Below, one piece after another: positions 3,650 to 15,585 of a DNA stretch of 54,791 nucleotides (positions are counted from its first letter, which is position 1; each line of letters starts with the position of its first letter). Both the position numbers and the translations under genes were made by a program. This DNA is from a virus, in IMG/VR virus record IMGVR_UViG_3300042446_001590, positions 1 through 54,791 of that record. One strand, given 5' to 3'. Under the pieces are notes generated by a model. It had not been told where the DNA came from and did not search any database. It saw only the letters and a list, made by a program, of their open reading frames with translations.

Positions 3650-5401
3650 ATGGCAGAACAAATCATCTCTCCTGGAGTATTCCAGATAGAAACAGACCAA
3701 AGTATCTACACGCAACAGCCTCAAGAAATGGGCGCTGCTATCGTAGGTCCTACAGTATCAGGTCGTCCTTTAGTTCCAACGTACGTTACTACTTATTCGC
3801 AATTCCAATCACTTTTCGGTGAGCAATTCAAAAGTGGTAGCTATTATTACGAATATTTCACATCACAAGCTGCTAAAGAATACTTTAGCAATGGTGGAAA
3901 AACATTATTAGTAACTAGAATCATTAGTGGTTCATCAGGTATTAGTACGTATGCGACTTCAAACATTCCTGCACTTTCAGGTACAGGATCATCATTCCAA
4001 TTAGAAACATTATCTTGGGGTGCACAAATGAACAACACATCTAGTATGTCAAGTGGTTCATTAGACAGTGGCTCTATGTTTAACGTTCGTTGGGAAGTAA
4101 CAGCAGTAAATTCAGGAAGTGGTACATTTACCTTAATAGTTCGTCGTGGTGATGATAACAACAACACTAAAAATATTTTAGAAACATGGGCTAACATGAG
4201 TTTAGATCCACAACAATCTAACTATATTGCTCGTGTTATTGGTGATTTAAAACCAGTATATGTTGCGGCAACAGGTGGAAGTTCAGCTTATGTTAATTTC
4301 TCTGGATCATATTCAAACAAATCACAATACGTTCGTGTATCAGCAGTAACAGTTCCTCAAGTAGATTCAATCGACAACAACGGAGCATATAAAGCAACTC
4401 AATACAGCGGTAGTTTACCAGCAGTAGGAAGTGGTTCATATGGTGGTTCATTTAGTGGTGGTGTAGTAGATACAACAGCTATTAAACAAATGAATGAAAA
4501 TATTGGTACAGGTGCTAGTTATTCAACTGGTTCTACAGGTAACATTCAAGGATTTGGAACAGCAGATTACGCATTAGCATTTAATTTATTAACAAATAAA
4601 GACGAATACCAATTTAACGTATTATTAGCTCCAGGTGCTGGTTTAGATAGTGCTGCAGCAGCTACAATGATTTCTACAGCAGAAGGTAGAGGCGATGCAA
4701 TCGCAATTACAGATGCAGGTGTATATGGTACAGCAATTGCAACAGCAGCTCAAAACGCAGCTGGACAATCAAGTAACTACGCTGCTACTTATTATCCTTG
4801 GGTTCAATTATACTCAACTACATTAGGTAAAACAACATGGTGCCCACCATCAACAGTAATCGGTGGTGTATTAGCATTTAATGATAATGCTGGTGCTGAA
4901 TGGTTTGCTCCTGCTGGATTAAACAGAGGTGGTATTCCAAACGTACTATTAGCAGAACGTAAATTACAACAAACAGATCGCGATACATTATATAGTGCAA
5001 ATGTTAACCCATTAGCAACATTCCCAGGAACTGGAGTATGTGTTTGGGGTCAGAAAACATTACAACGTAAACCAACATCTTTAGACAGAATCAACGTTCG
5101 TCGTTTATTAATTGCTTTAAAAGATTTCGTTGGAAGTGTATCTCGTACATTAGTATTCGAACAAAACACAACAGTAACAAGAAATAGATTCTTATCTCAA
5201 GTTAATCCATACTTAGAATCAGTAGTACAACGTCAAGGTTTATACGCTTACAAAGTAGTAATGGATGATTCAAATAACACACCAGATGTTATTGATAGAA
5301 ACCAATTAGTAGGTCAAATTTATATCCAACCTACAAAAACGGCTGAATTTATTATATTAAACTTTAACTTACAACCAACTGGAGCAACGTTTCCAGGATA
5401 A
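3650..5401 (+). CDS. Contractile tail sheath protein (T4 gp18-like)
   Basis: This 583-residue protein polymerises around the tail tube and contracts on infection. The N-terminus has the sheath hallmark 'sPGVFQIETDQSIYT..........AIVGPTVSGRP', followed by 'SQFQSLFGE' and 'YF.NGG.TLLVTRI'. The C-terminal third carries the conserved sheath core, including LDRINVRRLLIALKDFV, LVFEQNT.....RF and the final beta segment QIYIQPTKTAEFIILNFNLQ. The middle (about residues 100-300) is Ser/Gly/Thr-rich and variable, as expected for the protruding domains. The length is close to T4 gp18 (659). It has its own upstream box and downstream terminator, suggesting a highly expressed monocistronic unit. The tube gene follows, as in T4. 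Confidence 0.95.
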   Translation: MAEQIISPGVFQIETDQSIYTQQPQEMGAAIVGPTVSGRPLVPTYVTTYSQFQSLFGEQFKSGSYYYEYFTSQAAKEYFSNGGKTLLVTRIISGSSGISTYATSNIPALSGTGSSFQLETLSWGAQMNNTSSMSSGSLDSGSMFNVRWEVTAVNSGSGTFTLIVRRGDDNNNTKNILETWANMSLDPQQSNYIARVIGDLKPVYVAATGGSSAYVNFSGSYSNKSQYVRVSAVTVPQVDSIDNNGAYKATQYSGSLPAVGSGSYGGSFSGGVVDTTAIKQMNENIGTGASYSTGSTGNIQGFGTADYALAFNLLTNKDEYQFNVLLAPGAGLDSAAAATMISTAEGRGDAIAITDAGVYGTAIATAAQNAAGQSSNYAATYYPWVQLYSTTLGKTTWCPPSTVIGGVLAFNDNAGAEWFAPAGLNRGGIPNVLLAERKLQQTDRDTLYSANVNPLATFPGTGVCVWGQKTLQRKPTSLDRINVRRLLIALKDFVGSVSRTLVFEQNTTVTRNRFLSQVNPYLESVVQRQGLYAYKVVMDDSNNTPDVIDRNQLVGQIYIQPTKTAEFIILNFNLQPTGATFPG

Positions 5402-5490: not shown

Positions 5491-5976
5491 ATGCCAGTAT
5501 TAAACCCTAACGAAATAATGTTCACGAGTTTTGAACCACAAGTTCAGAATCGTTTTTTAATGTACATAGATGGTATCCCTGCATATTTAATTAAGAAAGC
5601 TAGTGCTCCTTCATTAGATGCTGGTGAAATCGTATTAGATCACATCAATGTTTACCGTAAAATTAAAGGTAAAGTAAGATGGAATGATATGACATTAGAA
5701 CTATATAATCCAATTACACCATCAGGCGCGCAATCAGTAATGGAATGGGTACGTTTATCACACGAATCTGTAACAGGACGTGATGGTTACTCAGATTTCT
5801 ACAAGAAAGACTTAACATTAGATATTTTAGGTCCAGTAGGAGACGTTATTAGTGAGTGGGTAGTTAAAGGAGCATTTGTAAAATCTGCTAACTTTGGCGA
5901 CTATGATTGGAGTTCAGATGCAGCTGTTTCATTATCGATAACAATTGCTATGGACTATTGCGTATTGAATTTCTAA
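5491..5976 (+). CDS. Tail tube protein (T4 gp19-like)
   Basis: The 161-residue protein matches T4 gp19 in size (163) and pattern: an N-terminal 'F.PQVQNRFLMYIDGIPAYLIKKASAPS', then 'IVLDHINVYRKIKGKVRWNDM', and a C-terminal beta segment ending in DYCVLNF. By family knowledge it forms the hexameric rings of the inner tail tube. Its position right after the sheath, with a separate promoter and terminator, matches other contractile-tailed phages. No odd features were seen. Confidence 0.93.
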   Translation: MPVLNPNEIMFTSFEPQVQNRFLMYIDGIPAYLIKKASAPSLDAGEIVLDHINVYRKIKGKVRWNDMTLELYNPITPSGAQSVMEWVRLSHESVTGRDGYSDFYKKDLTLDILGPVGDVISEWVVKGAFVKSANFGDYDWSSDAAVSLSITIAMDYCVLNF

Positions 5977-6073: not shown

Positions 6074-6844
6074 ATGGAAAATCCCGTTACAAAACCAAAA
6101 TTCCCTACTGAACAAGTAGACTTACCATCAAAAGGATTATTATATCCCAAAGACAATCCATTATCTAGTGGTGTTATTGAAATGAAATATATGACTGCGC
6201 GTGAAGAAGATATCCTCACAAACACTAACTATATTCGTCAAGGTACCGTTATTGATAAATTATTACAATCATTAATTGTAACACCAATTAACTATGATGA
6301 TTTATTGACAGGTGATAAAAACGCAATATTAGTTGCTGCTAGAGTATTAGGCTATGGTAAAGATTATGAATTTGCATACATTAACAGCCAAAATCAAGAG
6401 GTAAATGCGGTTGTAGACTTATCATTACTAAGTGATAAAGAAGTAGATACCTCGTTGTTTACCGCAGGTACCAACGAATTTTCGTTCAATTTACCGCATT
6501 CGGACAACCAAATCTCATTCAAACTATTAACACACGGTGATGAGAAGAAAATTGAAGCTGAAATTAAAGGATTACAGAAAGTCAATCCAAATTCATCATA
6601 CGATGTAACCACTCGTTTAAAATTCATGTTATTATCAGTTAATGGTAATCGTGATCAAAAAACAATACGTGATTTCGTAGATAATTATTTAATCGCTAAA
6701 GACGCTAGAGCATTACGTGAATATTATACCAAAATATCGCCAGATATTAGTATGAAATACACACCAGAAGATGATAGCTATACAGGGGAGGGTATAGACA
6801 TTCCCGTTTCTCTTAACTTTTTTTGGCCTGACTCCAAACTATAG
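6074..6844 (+). CDS. Baseplate hub / tail assembly protein (T4 gp26-like)
   Basis: The 256-residue protein carries the T4 baseplate family signature: FPTEQVDLPSKGLLYP near the N-terminus, then 'GVIEMKYMTAREEDILTN' and 'DKLLQSLIV'. The rest is alpha/beta with a charged C-terminal helical region ending FFWPDSKL. In T4, gene 26 is followed by gene 51; here the gp51-like reading frame lies in the +1 frame and overlaps the 3' end. The gene is directly upstream of the tape measure. It therefore occupies the place where lambda-type phages encode the tail-assembly chaperone G, whose product is extended by frameshifting into GT. The short form described here would be the unshifted product. Confidence 0.85.
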   Translation: MENPVTKPKFPTEQVDLPSKGLLYPKDNPLSSGVIEMKYMTAREEDILTNTNYIRQGTVIDKLLQSLIVTPINYDDLLTGDKNAILVAARVLGYGKDYEFAYINSQNQEVNAVVDLSLLSDKEVDTSLFTAGTNEFSFNLPHSDNQISFKLLTHGDEKKIEAEIKGLQKVNPNSSYDVTTRLKFMLLSVNGNRDQKTIRDFVDNYLIAKDARALREYYTKISPDISMKYTPEDDSYTGEGIDIPVSLNFFWPDSKL

Positions 6845-7091
6845 ATCAATATTCTTTGGCCAAATACATGAAATTGTATTTCATGGTAATGGCGGATATG
6901 ATTGGAATACTGTTTATGAAATGCCAATATGGTTGCGTAGGTACACATTTGAGAAATTAAAAGAATACTACGACAAACAACAGCAAGAGCAGGAAAAGCA
7001 AAGCAACATGATGACCAATAAAAGCAATAAAGACATAGCTAAACCTAACATATCACAACCAACTTATACAGCGAAGGTCCCTAAAAAATAG
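6798..7091 (+). CDS. gp51-like extension, likely made by ribosomal frameshift from the gp26-like gene
   Basis: This frame is open from just after a TAG at 6795-6797 to the TAG at 7089-7091. It encodes a clearly protein-like stretch: SIFFGQIHEIVFHGNGGYDW, then VYEMPIWLRRYTFEKLKEYY, then a Gln/Lys/Asn-rich tail. This matches the gp51/baseplate hub assembly pattern (F..IHEI..HG.GG......Y.MP.WLRR.TF). There is no ATG before the conserved region; the first ATG (6921) lies past half of it. The stretch would be reached from the gp26-like frame by a +1 (or -2) shift in the overlap, for which TTTTTTT at 6818-6824 is the obvious site. Alternatives are a non-ATG start or an assembly error. The coordinates give the open frame, not a proven protein. 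Confidence 0.75.
   Translation, partial: TFPFLLTFFGLTPNYRSIFFGQIHEIVFHGNGGYDWNTVYEMPIWLRRYTFEKLKEYYDKQQQEQEKQSNMMTNKSNKDIAKPNISQPTYTAKVPKK
6818..6824 (+). other. Candidate slippery site T7 for frameshifting
   Basis: The zero frame reads AAC TTT TTT TGG; the gp51-like frame reads TTT TTT GGC. A phenylalanine tRNA can re-pair after +1 or -2 slippage on the seven Ts. The zero-frame stop is only 18 bases after the run. Confidence 0.6.
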
Positions 7092-7125: not shown

Positions 7126-9153
7126 ATGGCTGACGACAAAGAAAAAGTAATAAAGCAATTAAATAACGAATTAGATCAATTAGATACTAAATTAAAAAGT
7201 TTAACTGCTAGTTTAAAAGATAACATGATAACTCAATTATCTAATGCTAGTACTGAAGTCAAAAACTTAGTTACAAGTTTTGAAAAAGGTGATGATTTAA
7301 CTAAAGTAATTTCAAAAACAGCATCTGAAATAGCTAAAAATTATGAAAAAAATAATGCATTATCATTTAAAAGAAATAGATTAGAATTTGAGTTATCTCA
7401 AGCTATTCAAACAAACAACGTAAGAGAGGAGAGAAAAATTAGAAATAAATTACTCCAAAACAAGTTAACTATTGATCAATTAGATACTACTACCCAATTA
7501 CTTACAAAAATACAAGCTTTAGCAGAAGAAGAAGTTCGAATAACAGCTGAAAAGAAAAAACAAGCTAATATAGCTATAACTAGTCGAAAAATATTTGATG
7601 AATTTGTTAAACCATATAAAGAACTAGCTAGTGTTGAAGGTATATTAAAACTAATCATTAATTCAGCATTAACCTTTAATAAAATATCAACTGATATTGG
7701 TAAAAATTTAGGTTATGGTGGTGACGGTGCAGATAGAGTAGCAGGTAATTTTGTAAAAATTGCTAGAGATTCAAATAATGTAAACATTACCACCCAAAAT
7801 CTAGCAGAGGCATTTAATCAATTATCTGAAGCTACAGGGTTAGTATCTGAATACTCAGCTGATGCTTTAAAAACTCAAGTAATGTTAACCAAACAATTTG
7901 GTTTAACAGGTGAAGAAGCAGCAGGAGTATATAGATTATCAGTACTAAATGGAAAATCATCTGCTGAAATAAATAAAAGCATGGTTAGTGCGTTTGTAGC
8001 AGCACGTAATCAATTAGGAGTAGGTATTCCGTTTAAAGCTACAATGGCTGAAGCTGCTAAAATATCAGGACAATTAGCTGCTAATTTAAAAAATAATCCA
8101 CAATTATTAGTTCAAGCAGTAGCACAAGCAAAAGCATTAGGTACTACACTTGAACAAACTAAATCTCAAGGTGAAGCATTATTAAATTTTGAATCATCAA
8201 TTGAGAACGAATTAAAAGCAGAATTATTAACTGGTAAAGCAATAAATCTTGAACGCGCTAGAGCAGCAGCTTTAATGGGTGATCAAGTCACAGTTGCTAA
8301 AGAATTAGCTAATCAAGGCATGACGTTGGAAAAATTCCAAAACATGAACGTATTAGCTCAACAATCATTTGCTGCTGCTATTGGATTAAGTGCAGATGCT
8401 TTAGCTAACCAATTAAGACAACAAAAATTAGCAATTGAAAGTGGTAAATCATTAGCCCAAATTACAGAAGAAGAAGCATTAGAAGCCCAAAAACGCCAAA
8501 GCATACAAGATAAATTTAATGCTTCTATATTAAAACTACAGGATTTCTTTGGAAATCTACTATCAGGACCTGTAGGAGGATTTTTAACAGTATTAACTCA
8601 AAGTTTAGATGTAATTACTAGTATAGTTGCGGTAATGGGTACAATGTGGGGTTTAAGTAAAGCTATAGCTGCATTTAATGCCTTAACATTAGGACTTCAA
8701 ATAGGACAAAGAACAGCCGGGTTGTCATATAATGGTATATTATTAGCTAGACAAGCTCTACTTCAAGGAGAATTAACTAAATCTATAGGTATAGCAGCAG
8801 CTACCGCTTTTAAAAATCCTATACTAGCAATAGCAGGATTAGCAGCAGCATATGGTGCTATATCATTAATACGTAGTGCTTCTCAATCAGTAGAAGATGG
8901 AATAGCACCATCAAGCAAAGGTCCATTTACTATTACTGATAAATTCGGAGCAACAGCTATAACAAAAACCGGAGACGGATTAGCAGTATCACCTAATATA
9001 TCAAAAGGTGCAGATAATTCAGGTATGATAGCAGCTATCAATAGCTTACATCAAACATTAACCCAAAAGAATTTCAACCCAGTTGTTAGAACTTCAATCG
9101 GCGGTTCCGAAATAGCCATAACATCCGTTCAAAATTCTTTTAATATGGCTTAA
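7126..9153 (+). CDS. Tail tape measure protein
   Basis: The 675-residue protein has a long helical, coiled-coil N-terminal half (KQLNNELDQLDTKLKSLTAS, later repeated charged helices). An Ala-rich helical middle (about 150-460) follows, then hydrophobic segments near residues 480-510 and 540-590 (ILAIAGLAAAYGAISLI). The C-terminus is globular with 'DGIAPSSKGPFTITDKFGA'. Length, helical content and hydrophobic segments fit a tape measure that sets tail length and leaves through the tube on infection (T4 gp29 has 590 residues). Its place after gp26/gp51-like and before baseplate genes agrees with T4 order. The exact family is inferred from architecture. Confidence 0.88.
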   Translation: MADDKEKVIKQLNNELDQLDTKLKSLTASLKDNMITQLSNASTEVKNLVTSFEKGDDLTKVISKTASEIAKNYEKNNALSFKRNRLEFELSQAIQTNNVREERKIRNKLLQNKLTIDQLDTTTQLLTKIQALAEEEVRITAEKKKQANIAITSRKIFDEFVKPYKELASVEGILKLIINSALTFNKISTDIGKNLGYGGDGADRVAGNFVKIARDSNNVNITTQNLAEAFNQLSEATGLVSEYSADALKTQVMLTKQFGLTGEEAAGVYRLSVLNGKSSAEINKSMVSAFVAARNQLGVGIPFKATMAEAAKISGQLAANLKNNPQLLVQAVAQAKALGTTLEQTKSQGEALLNFESSIENELKAELLTGKAINLERARAAALMGDQVTVAKELANQGMTLEKFQNMNVLAQQSFAAAIGLSADALANQLRQQKLAIESGKSLAQITEEEALEAQKRQSIQDKFNASILKLQDFFGNLLSGPVGGFLTVLTQSLDVITSIVAVMGTMWGLSKAIAAFNALTLGLQIGQRTAGLSYNGILLARQALLQGELTKSIGIAAATAFKNPILAIAGLAAAYGAISLIRSASQSVEDGIAPSSKGPFTITDKFGATAITKTGDGLAVSPNISKGADNSGMIAAINSLHQTLTQKNFNPVVRTSIGGSEIAITSVQNSFNMA

Positions 9154-11925: not shown

Positions 11926-14900
11926 ATGAGTATATTTAAGGACAGTTTTACCGATAAGGTAAGAGATCAATTAAAAGTAAGAGGAGAAGCATTTTTAGGC
12001 CGCTCCTCTACTGATATAATATACATTAATGGACGTGCTGCTTGGGTAAGGATGACATCTGGTGTTGACATTAATAATAGCTCTGAATTAGCTAGACAAA
12101 ATGTAATGCAAGGTGGTGTATTAGATCGTTTTGGTCAAATAAATGGATATGACAAATATGCATTACGCCAAGGCGTAGGTAATAATTTTAATACTAATGC
12201 ATACAGTAGTACTACTTTAGGTTCTGATAACTTATACGGTCTAAGACCAATGCCTGGTATTACTGGTTTAGATGTTCAATCAAAATCAGCATACGGATCA
12301 ATACGTACAGCAACAGTAACATTTAATTGTTGGGATATTAAACAACTTGAATTATTTGAGTTGCTATATATGCGTCCTGGATTCCTATCTTTAATTGAAT
12401 GGGGATGGTTGCCTTATTTAGACAACAATCATGGGCTTAAAAATAACGTTAATTTCTATGATATTTTTAATTCTGTAAAACCATTACAGACTCGTTTAAC
12501 TGAAGTATACAATAATTCTGAAGCACATGATGGTAATTATGAGGCTATATTAGGATATGTTAAAAACTATGAATGGTCTCTTAGACCAGATGGTGGATAC
12601 GATTGTAGAACAGAAATTATATCTACAGGTGAAATATTAGAATCACTTAAAGTAAATTATAGTACTAACTTTATATCTACTGTTAATTTAAGAAAAGGAT
12701 TATTATTTGCTAACGAAAAAAGCCCAGATGGTATTTCATACATTGAATCTCACTATGGTAAAGATATGGCTTCTTTATATGAAAATAATATCATAGCAGG
12801 TATAGCAGGTGAATTAACATTTTATGCTTATACATTAATAGGAATAAACCATAGTAAATACTTAGAATCAGAAGCTAAATACATAGCACCTGAAAAAGGA
12901 TATGGATGGAAATACATAGATGATAAAGGAAATGTTACTGGTGAAAAAGGACATGTTATTGATATGTTTCTTATTGATGTAGATGGTAAAGTTGGAGGTG
13001 ATGATACAAAAGTAAAGGATGAAAGATTACCTGGTATTGAGTTAGATAAACAAGTTTATATTGATTTAGATTCATTTACTAAAATATTAACTAAGTGGAT
13101 AATGCCCCATGAAAAAACATCAAATGCTCCTATAGTATCTATATCTACTAAAGATAGAACATATTATAAAGCAGACAAAACAGCTAAAGCTGATAATCTA
13201 TTATGTTTATCCCACCCACTACAGATATCAGTAGATCCAACAATATGTTTGATTAAAAATACTAATTTTAAAAACATTAAAAATCTTAAAACATCTCTTT
13301 TACCAACAAATATATATCCACCTAATGCTAAAACAAGGGATGAAAGAGAATTAATTTTAAAGGCTAAGAATACAATAAGTGCGTACGCTAAAAGTGATAA
13401 ATTTGATGATGTTACTGAAAGTAGCAAAATTATTAGAGGGTATATAGATGATGCTATAAGTTTAGGTATATCTCCTAAAGTTTATGGAAATATATTAGCA
13501 AATGCCTGGGAAGAATACAAAGTTAAAAATATACCCAATGAATATTTTATTGTTGGAGGAACAGGTCTTTTTTCATCTGTTGCATTAGAATATAGAATTT
13601 TAACCACAGATAAAAACACATTAATAAAGTCTCAACGTGTAGAGGCAGATAAATCTAATTTAGACGAAGCAATTAATTCTATTTCTTCTCTTTCATTTTT
13701 AGATATTTTACAAGAATCATTAAGTAAATCAACTACTACATTGATATTATCATATAGGTTACCTAATGACTTAAAATCTGAAAAAGGAGTAAATGATATA
13801 TATGTAGCTTCACCTGAGATAATAAGTACTGCTAAAAATACAATAAAAAGCAATATACAAATATCAGAATTAAATAATCAAGAAACAAATGTTGAAAATT
13901 TATCATTTTTAGATAAATTAACTAAAGACTATTTTACAACAATTAAGGACACATCAAATGGTACTTTTGGTAATATAGGGGCTATATACATCAATTTAAA
14001 TAATATTCTTCTATTATCTTTAGATAGTGGATTAGAAGCAAATGACGTTAAAGAAAAACGTGAAATCAATTTATATGATTTTATTAAAAAACTAATGAAC
14101 CAAGTTCAAGGTTCAATTGGTAGTTTAAATAACTTTGAAGTACATGCTGATCCTGCTGATGGTATAGGTAGAATTATAGATGTTAATTATATTGATAAAA
14201 AAACTGTAGATGAAGCATATAATGATGCGTTTACATTTTTAAGTAAAGAAGCAACAGGTCCGGGAACTAAATTTAATGGTTTATTTAATAATGTTCGTTC
14301 ATACAAAATAACATCTCAAATATTTAAAGAACAAAGTAGTATAGTTGCTATTAGTGCTCAAAATGGAGGTGGTATACTTGGTTTAGATAATGAAACATTA
14401 GTAGGATTTAACTATGGAATAACAAATAGAATACTACCAGACATTATACCACCTGCATCTTCATTATCGTATAATAAAAGTGAGGATCAACTTAAATTAG
14501 TAACAACACTTTCATCTTCTTTAAGAAGCTTAAATGAATTTATGACAGATTTAGGTTGGATACCTGGATTTGAATGGTTTTCTCAAAGAGAATTTAATTT
14601 AGATAATGCTGAAAAATATAAAAATTCTTTAAGAGATATAATTATGGTTTATAAAGCATTAACTAAATCAGACGCTTCATTTAAAGCTATTATACCTACA
14701 ATAGTATCATTAGAATTAGATGGTATTGGTGGTTTAGTTATAGGCCATATGTTCAGACTACCTCAGGAATTACTTCCAGCAGGATATAAAGGTGAAAAAA
14801 TATCAGGTGCTAAAGTAGGAAGAAAATTAGGATATATTATTACTAAATTAGGCCATAGAGTATCTAATTCAGATTGGGTTACTCAAATTGATGCTCAAAC

Positions 14901-15585
14901 TGTTATATTAGAAGATAGTGACCAACCAACATTCGATTTACTTACTGTTTTAACAGCGTTAGGTGAAGGAGCTGAAGCAAACATATCAGTTGAAGGTGAA
15001 ATTAAAATAGATGATTCTAAAGTTAAAGTTGATTTTACTGATGATGCTATTTCAAATTATTGGGCTCTAGTTGCTATAAGTGCAGCTGAAAATTTTGAGG
15101 ATAATAAACAAGGGATGGCGGACGTTGCTCAATCAATATATAATAGATTAAATGCTAATGGATTGTATGGTAGTACTATAAAAAGAATAGTATTAGAAGA
15201 TAAACCTACTAGGCAATTTGCCCCAGTAGGAAAAAATGTAAATGATTGGAAAAACATTAAATCAGAAGAGACGGCTATAATAGCTTTAAAAAATTCTAAA
15301 AAAGTAAGTCAAGAAACAGCTAAAAAGTGGATAAACAATGCTGTTGATGCTTTAAAAGATCCAACATTAAGAATTAACGCTGCTAAGTTTGTAGGCTCAA
15401 GAACAGAATTTTTATCCGCACCCCCAACAGATAAAAAAACTAAAGCTGTAGAGGTAATAGAAAGAGCACCTAAAAATCAAAACAATGCATTTTTCTGGAA
15501 CTATGCAGGTAAAAATATTTATTATAGTAAAAAGAATTTTCTTGCTACTAATCCTCCTTTAGACATATCTAGTAAATTAGTGTAA
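11926..15585 (+). CDS. Giant baseplate hub protein with C-terminal SleB-like cell-wall hydrolase domain
   Basis: This is the largest protein here (1219 residues). The N-terminal region looks like a hub: it contains 'ATVTFNCWDIKQLELFELLY' and 'FLSLIEWGWLPYLD', and later 'IGHMFRLPQELLP' with 'VSNSDWVTQIDAQ'. The C-terminal ~170 residues (from about 1040) resemble the SleB/Hydrolase_2 fold: 'WALVAISAAENFEDNKQGMADVAQSIYNRL' has the layout of family members, with Glu1055 as candidate catalytic acid, followed by 'TIKRIV......RQFAPV'. This would parallel T4 gp5, where hub and lysozyme are joined, but with a different enzyme family. It probably opens the peptidoglycan during injection. The hydrolase call is from pattern only. 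Confidence 0.8.
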   Translation: MSIFKDSFTDKVRDQLKVRGEAFLGRSSTDIIYINGRAAWVRMTSGVDINNSSELARQNVMQGGVLDRFGQINGYDKYALRQGVGNNFNTNAYSSTTLGSDNLYGLRPMPGITGLDVQSKSAYGSIRTATVTFNCWDIKQLELFELLYMRPGFLSLIEWGWLPYLDNNHGLKNNVNFYDIFNSVKPLQTRLTEVYNNSEAHDGNYEAILGYVKNYEWSLRPDGGYDCRTEIISTGEILESLKVNYSTNFISTVNLRKGLLFANEKSPDGISYIESHYGKDMASLYENNIIAGIAGELTFYAYTLIGINHSKYLESEAKYIAPEKGYGWKYIDDKGNVTGEKGHVIDMFLIDVDGKVGGDDTKVKDERLPGIELDKQVYIDLDSFTKILTKWIMPHEKTSNAPIVSISTKDRTYYKADKTAKADNLLCLSHPLQISVDPTICLIKNTNFKNIKNLKTSLLPTNIYPPNAKTRDERELILKAKNTISAYAKSDKFDDVTESSKIIRGYIDDAISLGISPKVYGNILANAWEEYKVKNIPNEYFIVGGTGLFSSVALEYRILTTDKNTLIKSQRVEADKSNLDEAINSISSLSFLDILQESLSKSTTTLILSYRLPNDLKSEKGVNDIYVASPEIISTAKNTIKSNIQISELNNQETNVENLSFLDKLTKDYFTTIKDTSNGTFGNIGAIYINLNNILLLSLDSGLEANDVKEKREINLYDFIKKLMNQVQGSIGSLNNFEVHADPADGIGRIIDVNYIDKKTVDEAYNDAFTFLSKEATGPGTKFNGLFNNVRSYKITSQIFKEQSSIVAISAQNGGGILGLDNETLVGFNYGITNRILPDIIPPASSLSYNKSEDQLKLVTTLSSSLRSLNEFMTDLGWIPGFEWFSQREFNLDNAEKYKNSLRDIIMVYKALTKSDASFKAIIPTIVSLELDGIGGLVIGHMFRLPQELLPAGYKGEKISGAKVGRKLGYIITKLGHRVSNSDWVTQIDAQTVILEDSDQPTFDLLTVLTALGEGAEANISVEGEIKIDDSKVKVDFTDDAISNYWALVAISAAENFEDNKQGMADVAQSIYNRLNANGLYGSTIKRIVLEDKPTRQFAPVGKNVNDWKNIKSEETAIIALKNSKKVSQETAKKWINNAVDALKDPTLRINAAKFVGSRTEFLSAPPTDKKTKAVEVIERAPKNQNNAFFWNYAGKNIYYSKKNFLATNPPLDISSKLV

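Follow-up and report, generated by a model that had tools for sequence, protein, structure and literature searches.

Pairs of short and long tail assembly chaperones made by programmed frameshifting are known from tailed phages, including gpG and gpGT of lambda (Xu, Hendrix and Duda 2004; Atkins 2016, PMC5009743). In these pairs, the shift is mostly −1 at a seven-base slippery motif. Members with a +1 shift have already been proposed (PMC7230728, PMC5009743), in HSTV-2 and in the HF1 group of haloviruses, in the latter at TTT-CGC (PMC7230728). T4 was the stated exception to tail-chaperone frameshifting (PMC5009743). As cited in PMC10885494 and PMC12846349, however, Vladimirov et al. (2022) treat T4 gp26 and gp51 as tail assembly chaperones, and PMC10885494 cites the same study (Virology 566:9) for short and long (fused) chaperone genes in T4-like phages. 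Poly-T −1 signals in such genes are mentioned in PMC12846349. Here we analyze a locus of this family for which a +1 programmed frameshift yielding short and long tail chaperones is, on comparative evidence, the best explanation (probability about 0.9).

In the window, by which we mean the whole 54,791-nucleotide stretch of viral DNA that was analyzed, the chaperone pair (6074–7091) sits between a tail tube gene and a tape-measure gene, all on the plus strand. A tail sheath gene (3650–5401; PF04984/PF17482, phrog_23 E 1e-74) precedes the tube gene (5491–5976; phrog_4542 E 3.5e-25, with PF06841 below cut-off). The short chaperone, a gp26-like protein of 256 aa (TAC-N), is encoded in the zero frame at 6074–6844; its ORF ends AAC TTT TTT TGG CCT GAC TCC AAA CTA TAG, the stop lying at 6842–6844. 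Within this stretch, the putative slip site TTT TTT TGG occupies 6818–6826, and 17 bases separate its run of seven Ts (T7, 6818–6824) from the stop. A second ORF is open in the +1 frame from 6798 to a TAG at 7089–7091, and its coding part (6798–7088) encodes IHEIVFHGNGGYDW...VYEMPIWLRRYTF. As the initial annotation had noted, this gp51-like sequence overlaps the 3′ end of the gp26-like gene and lacks an early start. No ATG, GTG or TTG lies ahead of its conserved part, and its earliest ATG, at 6921, falls within that part. The window holds a single copy of the 15-mer CTTTTTTTGGCCTGA, whereas 100 shuffles yield none, which is more than chance would give. The tape-measure gene (7126–9153) follows directly, 34 nt past the end of the gp51-like ORF; its product resembles a protein of Flavobacterium phage immuto that is annotated as a tape measure (E 3e-30, with 28% identity across 354 columns). 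The locus thus shares with the G/GT type its location between tube and tape measure, its overlapping, startless second ORF, and its conserved slippery joint, but has in place of the −1 seven-base motif, which is usual though not required in that type, a +1 offset at UUU-Y. Farther along, the C-terminal stretch of a 1219-aa baseplate-region protein (11926–15585) resembles a cell-wall hydrolase (PF07486, 26.1 bits, cut-off 27).

The gp26-like protein matches PF12322 (24.6 bits, cut-off 24.5) and phrog_150 (E 1e-12). It was folded separately from the downstream part, and its AlphaFold model (pLDDT 92.7) matches models of T4-like gp26, hub and hub-assembly proteins in BFVD with probability 1.00. 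The downstream part (6825–7088), which would form the C-terminal domain of the long product (TAC-NC), is modeled as three helices with pLDDT 79. A fold search with this part gave no significant match. Among the PDB matches listed in structure comparison, the solved HK97 tail assembly chaperone (2ob9_B) had the top probability, at only 0.23 (E 2.6). The gp51-like assignment draws on the family: phrog_634 (baseplate hub assembly catalyst) is matched by 11 of the 52 members, with E 6.5e-4 at best, and not by the protein from the window itself. That protein has no confident Pfam or PHROG family match; MRP-L51 and terminase matched the 90-aa part weakly in those databases, which was judged to be chance.

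Strong support for a frameshift comes from relatives. Homologous loci were gathered by homology search from hundreds of viral contigs, together with sets obtained from the Mel-JY01 and immuto versions; a search of bacterial genomes found no related genes. A complete gp26-like ORF was present at 245 loci, and the second domain, detectable at 241 of these, lay in the +1 frame every time (241/241). These loci include near-identical contigs, so that the counts are not independent; they represent 183 distinct 120-nt contexts. At the four loci where the second domain was not detected (two SP-15 records, RM378 and LR756511), a +1 ORF is present by eye in SP-15 and RM378. Over the 60 codons past the slip site, the +1 frame is open at 237 of 237 loci, the zero frame at none and the third frame at two. 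A search by DNA pattern instead of homology gave 112 loci, not all of them on new contigs, and every one agrees (112/112). In the downstream stretch, sequence changes fall preferentially on the third bases of +1-frame codons (49–55%), which marks it as a translated reading frame. A long ORF comes next after the chaperone pair at 200 of 203 loci. The first 25 codons past the slip hold no ATG, GTG or TTG at 169 of 241 loci; at the other 72 some such codon occurs, at inconsistent positions. The frame comparison therefore bears out the proposal of a G/GT-like frameshift joining the gp26-like and gp51-like parts, as does conservation of the slip site.

That conservation extends to a defined set of joints. 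Among the 183 distinct contexts, TTTTTTTGG accounts for 146, TTTCTTTGG for 27, TTTCTATGG and CTTTTTTGG for 3 each, TTTTTTTAC for 2, and TTTCTTTAC and TTTCTATTC for 1 each, with no others beyond these seven variants. All fit (TTT or CTT)(TTT, CTT or CTA)T(GG, AC or TC), and all contain UUU-Y. Thus the nonamer or a variant that keeps UUU-Y is universal, although the T-run as such, whose conservation the initial annotation had made a check on its proposal, is interrupted in 32 contexts. Since every context offers U or C after a UUU, a P-site tRNA-Phe would be able to re-pair one base forward in all of them. The residues encoded at the joint, FFGL, are invariant. In 30 of the 183 contexts, the +1 frame is closed no more than three codons upstream of the slip, which would confine the shift to a few codons. 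The joint of Streptococcus phage GXN1 (L085, around 4700–4727), TTC TTT CGT, is a UUU-CGN motif of the kind that PMC7230728 cites for viruses of eukaryotes and for HF1 haloviruses. The site in immuto is TTT CTT TGG.

A −2 shift on the T-run would reach the same frame, the fusion then having one additional Phe, and T7 alone permits either direction, as had been pointed out from the window sequence. A −2 frameshift has been described for phage Mu. The relatives separate the two directions. At TTT CTA TGG, at TTT CTA TTC (L087) and at the GXN1 joint, a −2 shift would make tRNA-Phe or tRNA-Leu re-pair with non-cognate ACU, CCU, UUC or UCU, whereas a +1 shift yields UUC, cognate for tRNA-Phe. The +1 direction is favored accordingly; −2 is excluded for several relatives, and we consider it extremely improbable. 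Slippage of RNA polymerase on the run, which would change frame in the transcript, could exploit a homopolymer of seven bases. A T7 run is short for transcriptional slippage, however, and contexts with a broken run, such as TTTCTTTGG and TTTCTATGG, keep the frame offset unchanged, so that we give this explanation next to no weight.

Alternatively, the gp51-like ORF might be a separate gene read from a non-standard start, such as the CTG at 6828 or another near-cognate codon, perhaps helped by an upstream element described below, GGGGAGGG. T4 and some of its relatives do have separate genes, and a CTG lies shortly past the slip at 195 of 241 loci. Yet it is absent at the other 46; it overlaps codons for W-P in the zero frame and for G-L in the +1 frame, from which its conservation follows; and GGGGAGGG lies 35 nt away. 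The invariant FFGL at the joint and the conserved T-run upstream of any such start also speak against a separate gene, and we consider this reading highly improbable. Nor did we find, in the +1-frame lineage, any gp51-like ORF with an ATG of its own at a consistent position; own-ATG versions are confined to a separate −1-frame lineage. Finally, homopolymers are prone to error, and an indel introduced in sequencing or assembly could mimic an offset, as could decay into a pseudogene. The offset recurs in 241 contigs, which come from many samples, and in the isolate genomes of immuto, Mel-JY01 and RM378, so that independent assemblies refute an indel; no frame-restoring indel was found in the +1-frame lineage, and selection on the +1 frame speaks against decay. 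The probability left to this explanation is negligible.

The programmed +1 shift thus remains the preferred reading, under which the locus would encode two tail assembly chaperones of a myovirus of the T4 superfamily. Most ribosomes would translate 6074–6844 into the short gp26-like chaperone. In a minority, tRNA-Phe on UUU in the P site would slip forward one base onto UUU before decoding of the next codon (UUU-U here, UUU-C in relatives); these ribosomes would stay in the +1 frame to 7088 and make a 338-aa long form carrying the three-helix gp51-like domain. That slippage occurs, its rate, and which of the two UUU codons slips are matters that we infer from sequence. By analogy with gpG and gpGT of lambda, the two products would act as chaperones, the short and long forms coating the tape-measure protein and recruiting tail-tube subunits.

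It is useful to contrast this arrangement with that of T4. Both T4 gp26 and gp51 match PF12322 and phrog_150, and the phrog_634 extension is present in gp51 only; with their profiles matching at 99.25% (hhalign), the two are, by profile comparison, paralogues. The initial annotation took genes 26 and 51 to be separate neighbors in T4. They do adjoin (L089, 3803–4429 and 4480–5229), but on opposite strands and pointing apart, as they do in four T4 relatives. A virtual fusion of the window's two parts matches the fusions of SP-15, GXN1 and RM378 at 99.9% (E 8e-33) in profile comparison, and fusions from −1-frame phages at 95.4% (E 2e-8), the latter across the joint; the −1-frame fusions in turn match T4 gp51 across the joint at 99.3% (E 9e-21). 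Compared directly, the window family profile has no significant match to T4 gp51 or gp26. For the downstream domain alone, the stepwise values are 89% from the window family to the SP-15 group, 54% from the window family to the −1-frame group, and 97% from that group to gp51. The window's downstream domain thus appears to be related to T4 gp51 indirectly, through intermediates, and more weakly when taken alone. Because the matches run across the joint from the window to the −1-frame fusions and on to gp51, T4 gp51 looks like a long form fused in frame, with the extension attached to a gp26 paralogue at the point where the others slip. T4 would accordingly share with the window a PF12322/phrog_150 short form and a long form with a phrog_634-like C-terminal domain at the same joint, but from two divergent genes and no frameshift rather than from one gene and a +1 shift. 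The proposed link between the 26/51 pair and the general tail-chaperone scheme is not new, having been published in 2022 according to PMC10885494.

The −1-frame lineage has two forms. In phages of the Aeromonas phiAS5 and Rhizobium IC12 types (L094, L180–L183, L092, L266), the gp51-like ORF follows GAT TTT TTC in the −1 frame and reaches its first ATG 38–47 nt past the gp26 stop; these phages likely use a −1 shift. In RL38J1, Sf-FS3 and Cygsa01, the gp51-like ORF starts at an ATG of its own, located at the gp26 stop.

A second conserved feature lies upstream of the slip. The element GGGGAGGG (6785–6792), complementary to the anti-Shine-Dalgarno (anti-SD) sequence with a dG of −11.9 kcal/mol, is invariant in the close clade and stands exactly 25 nt before the slip site (spacer 6793–6817) in 63 of 63 close relatives. 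In the window clade, GGG at −11 and GAG at −10 occur in 65 of 65 sequences each, against backgrounds of 0.083 and 0.166, and both rank within the top four codon-biased of 122 conserved codon columns; CTT at −2 and ATA at −8 are likewise strongly biased. Anti-SD complementarity peaks at about −35 in three clades (−11.8, −9.7 and −8.9 kcal/mol), with a slightly stronger peak at +69 in the immuto clade that coincides with Gly-Gly codons. An SD core is found at −45 to −20 in 63/63, 41/60 and 46/68 sequences of the three clades, versus 28 of 1719 control windows, and precedes the start of 1 of 52 window ORFs. In the Mel-JY01 clade (L100–L179), 39 of 68 sequences have an in-frame ATG 24 nt before the slip and after the SD-like element, which resembles an internal start; this codon, −8, is ATA in 63 of 65 window-clade sequences. 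We rejected an internal start at zero-frame codon −8, since a frameshift would still be needed and the spacing is poor in the window clade.

Kinship to immuto points to a Bacteroidota host. Bacteroidia ribosomes hide their anti-SD yet retain an SD-like element in prfB (PMC8710568). The prfB (RF2) shift, including the Bacteroidia form AGGAGGUAUCUUUGAC (PMC8710568), resembles the window site in its +1 slip of P-site CUU or UUU and its SD-like element, and variants with TTTTTGA, where tRNA-Phe slips, have been reported (PMC12421855). It differs in that its SD lies 3 nt from the slip codon, with UGA in the A site, instead of 25 nt with UGG; a spacing of 25 nt is at odds with SD-stimulated +1 shifting as known (PMC12421855). 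GGGGAGGG may nonetheless stimulate the shift. That it is a dedicated long-range +1 stimulator, with which elongating ribosomes pair so as to set the short-to-long chaperone ratio, is possible but rather unlikely; in hosts expected to hide the anti-SD, pairing might occur after loss of bS21 or with the spacer folded. The HF1 group and HSTV-2 share the proposed +1 direction, and in the HF1 group the slip codon of the tail chaperone gene, here too that of a myovirus, is likewise of the UUU-Y kind. These viruses have archaeal hosts and another slip context, however.

Downstream of the slip site, no consensus fold was found in the two clades tested, where alifold z-scores are unreliable owing to near-zero shuffle variance. 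For the immuto clade, a hairpin is predicted in the interval from the SD-like element to the slip (mean −4.9 versus −2.6 shuffled), and most of the window clade has none of this type. We did not retain it as a conserved signal, since its fixed pairs follow from encoded residues and its wobble pair −16/−7 covaries only mildly (35 seen versus 29.2 expected).

What is new here is the apparent clade-wide +1 shift in the gp26/gp51 family, together with an invariant element, GGGGAGGG, that close relatives keep exactly 25 nt ahead of the slip although the phage hardly ever relies on Shine-Dalgarno sites. As a strongly conserved SD-like element in an unexplained position, GGGGAGGG is of interest for ribosomes blind to such sites; if long-range stimulation proved true, it would be a frameshift signal of new geometry. 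The shift would serve a large, mostly unstudied group of T4-related phages; T4 does the same job with two separate genes. In the gene lists of hundreds of these phages, a tail assembly protein probably lacks its C-terminal half. More broadly, a +1 shift, a −1 shift, a separate downstream gene, and the short and long genes of T4 would all belong to one family with its joint at the same place, so that the evolution of a two-product strategy becomes traceable.
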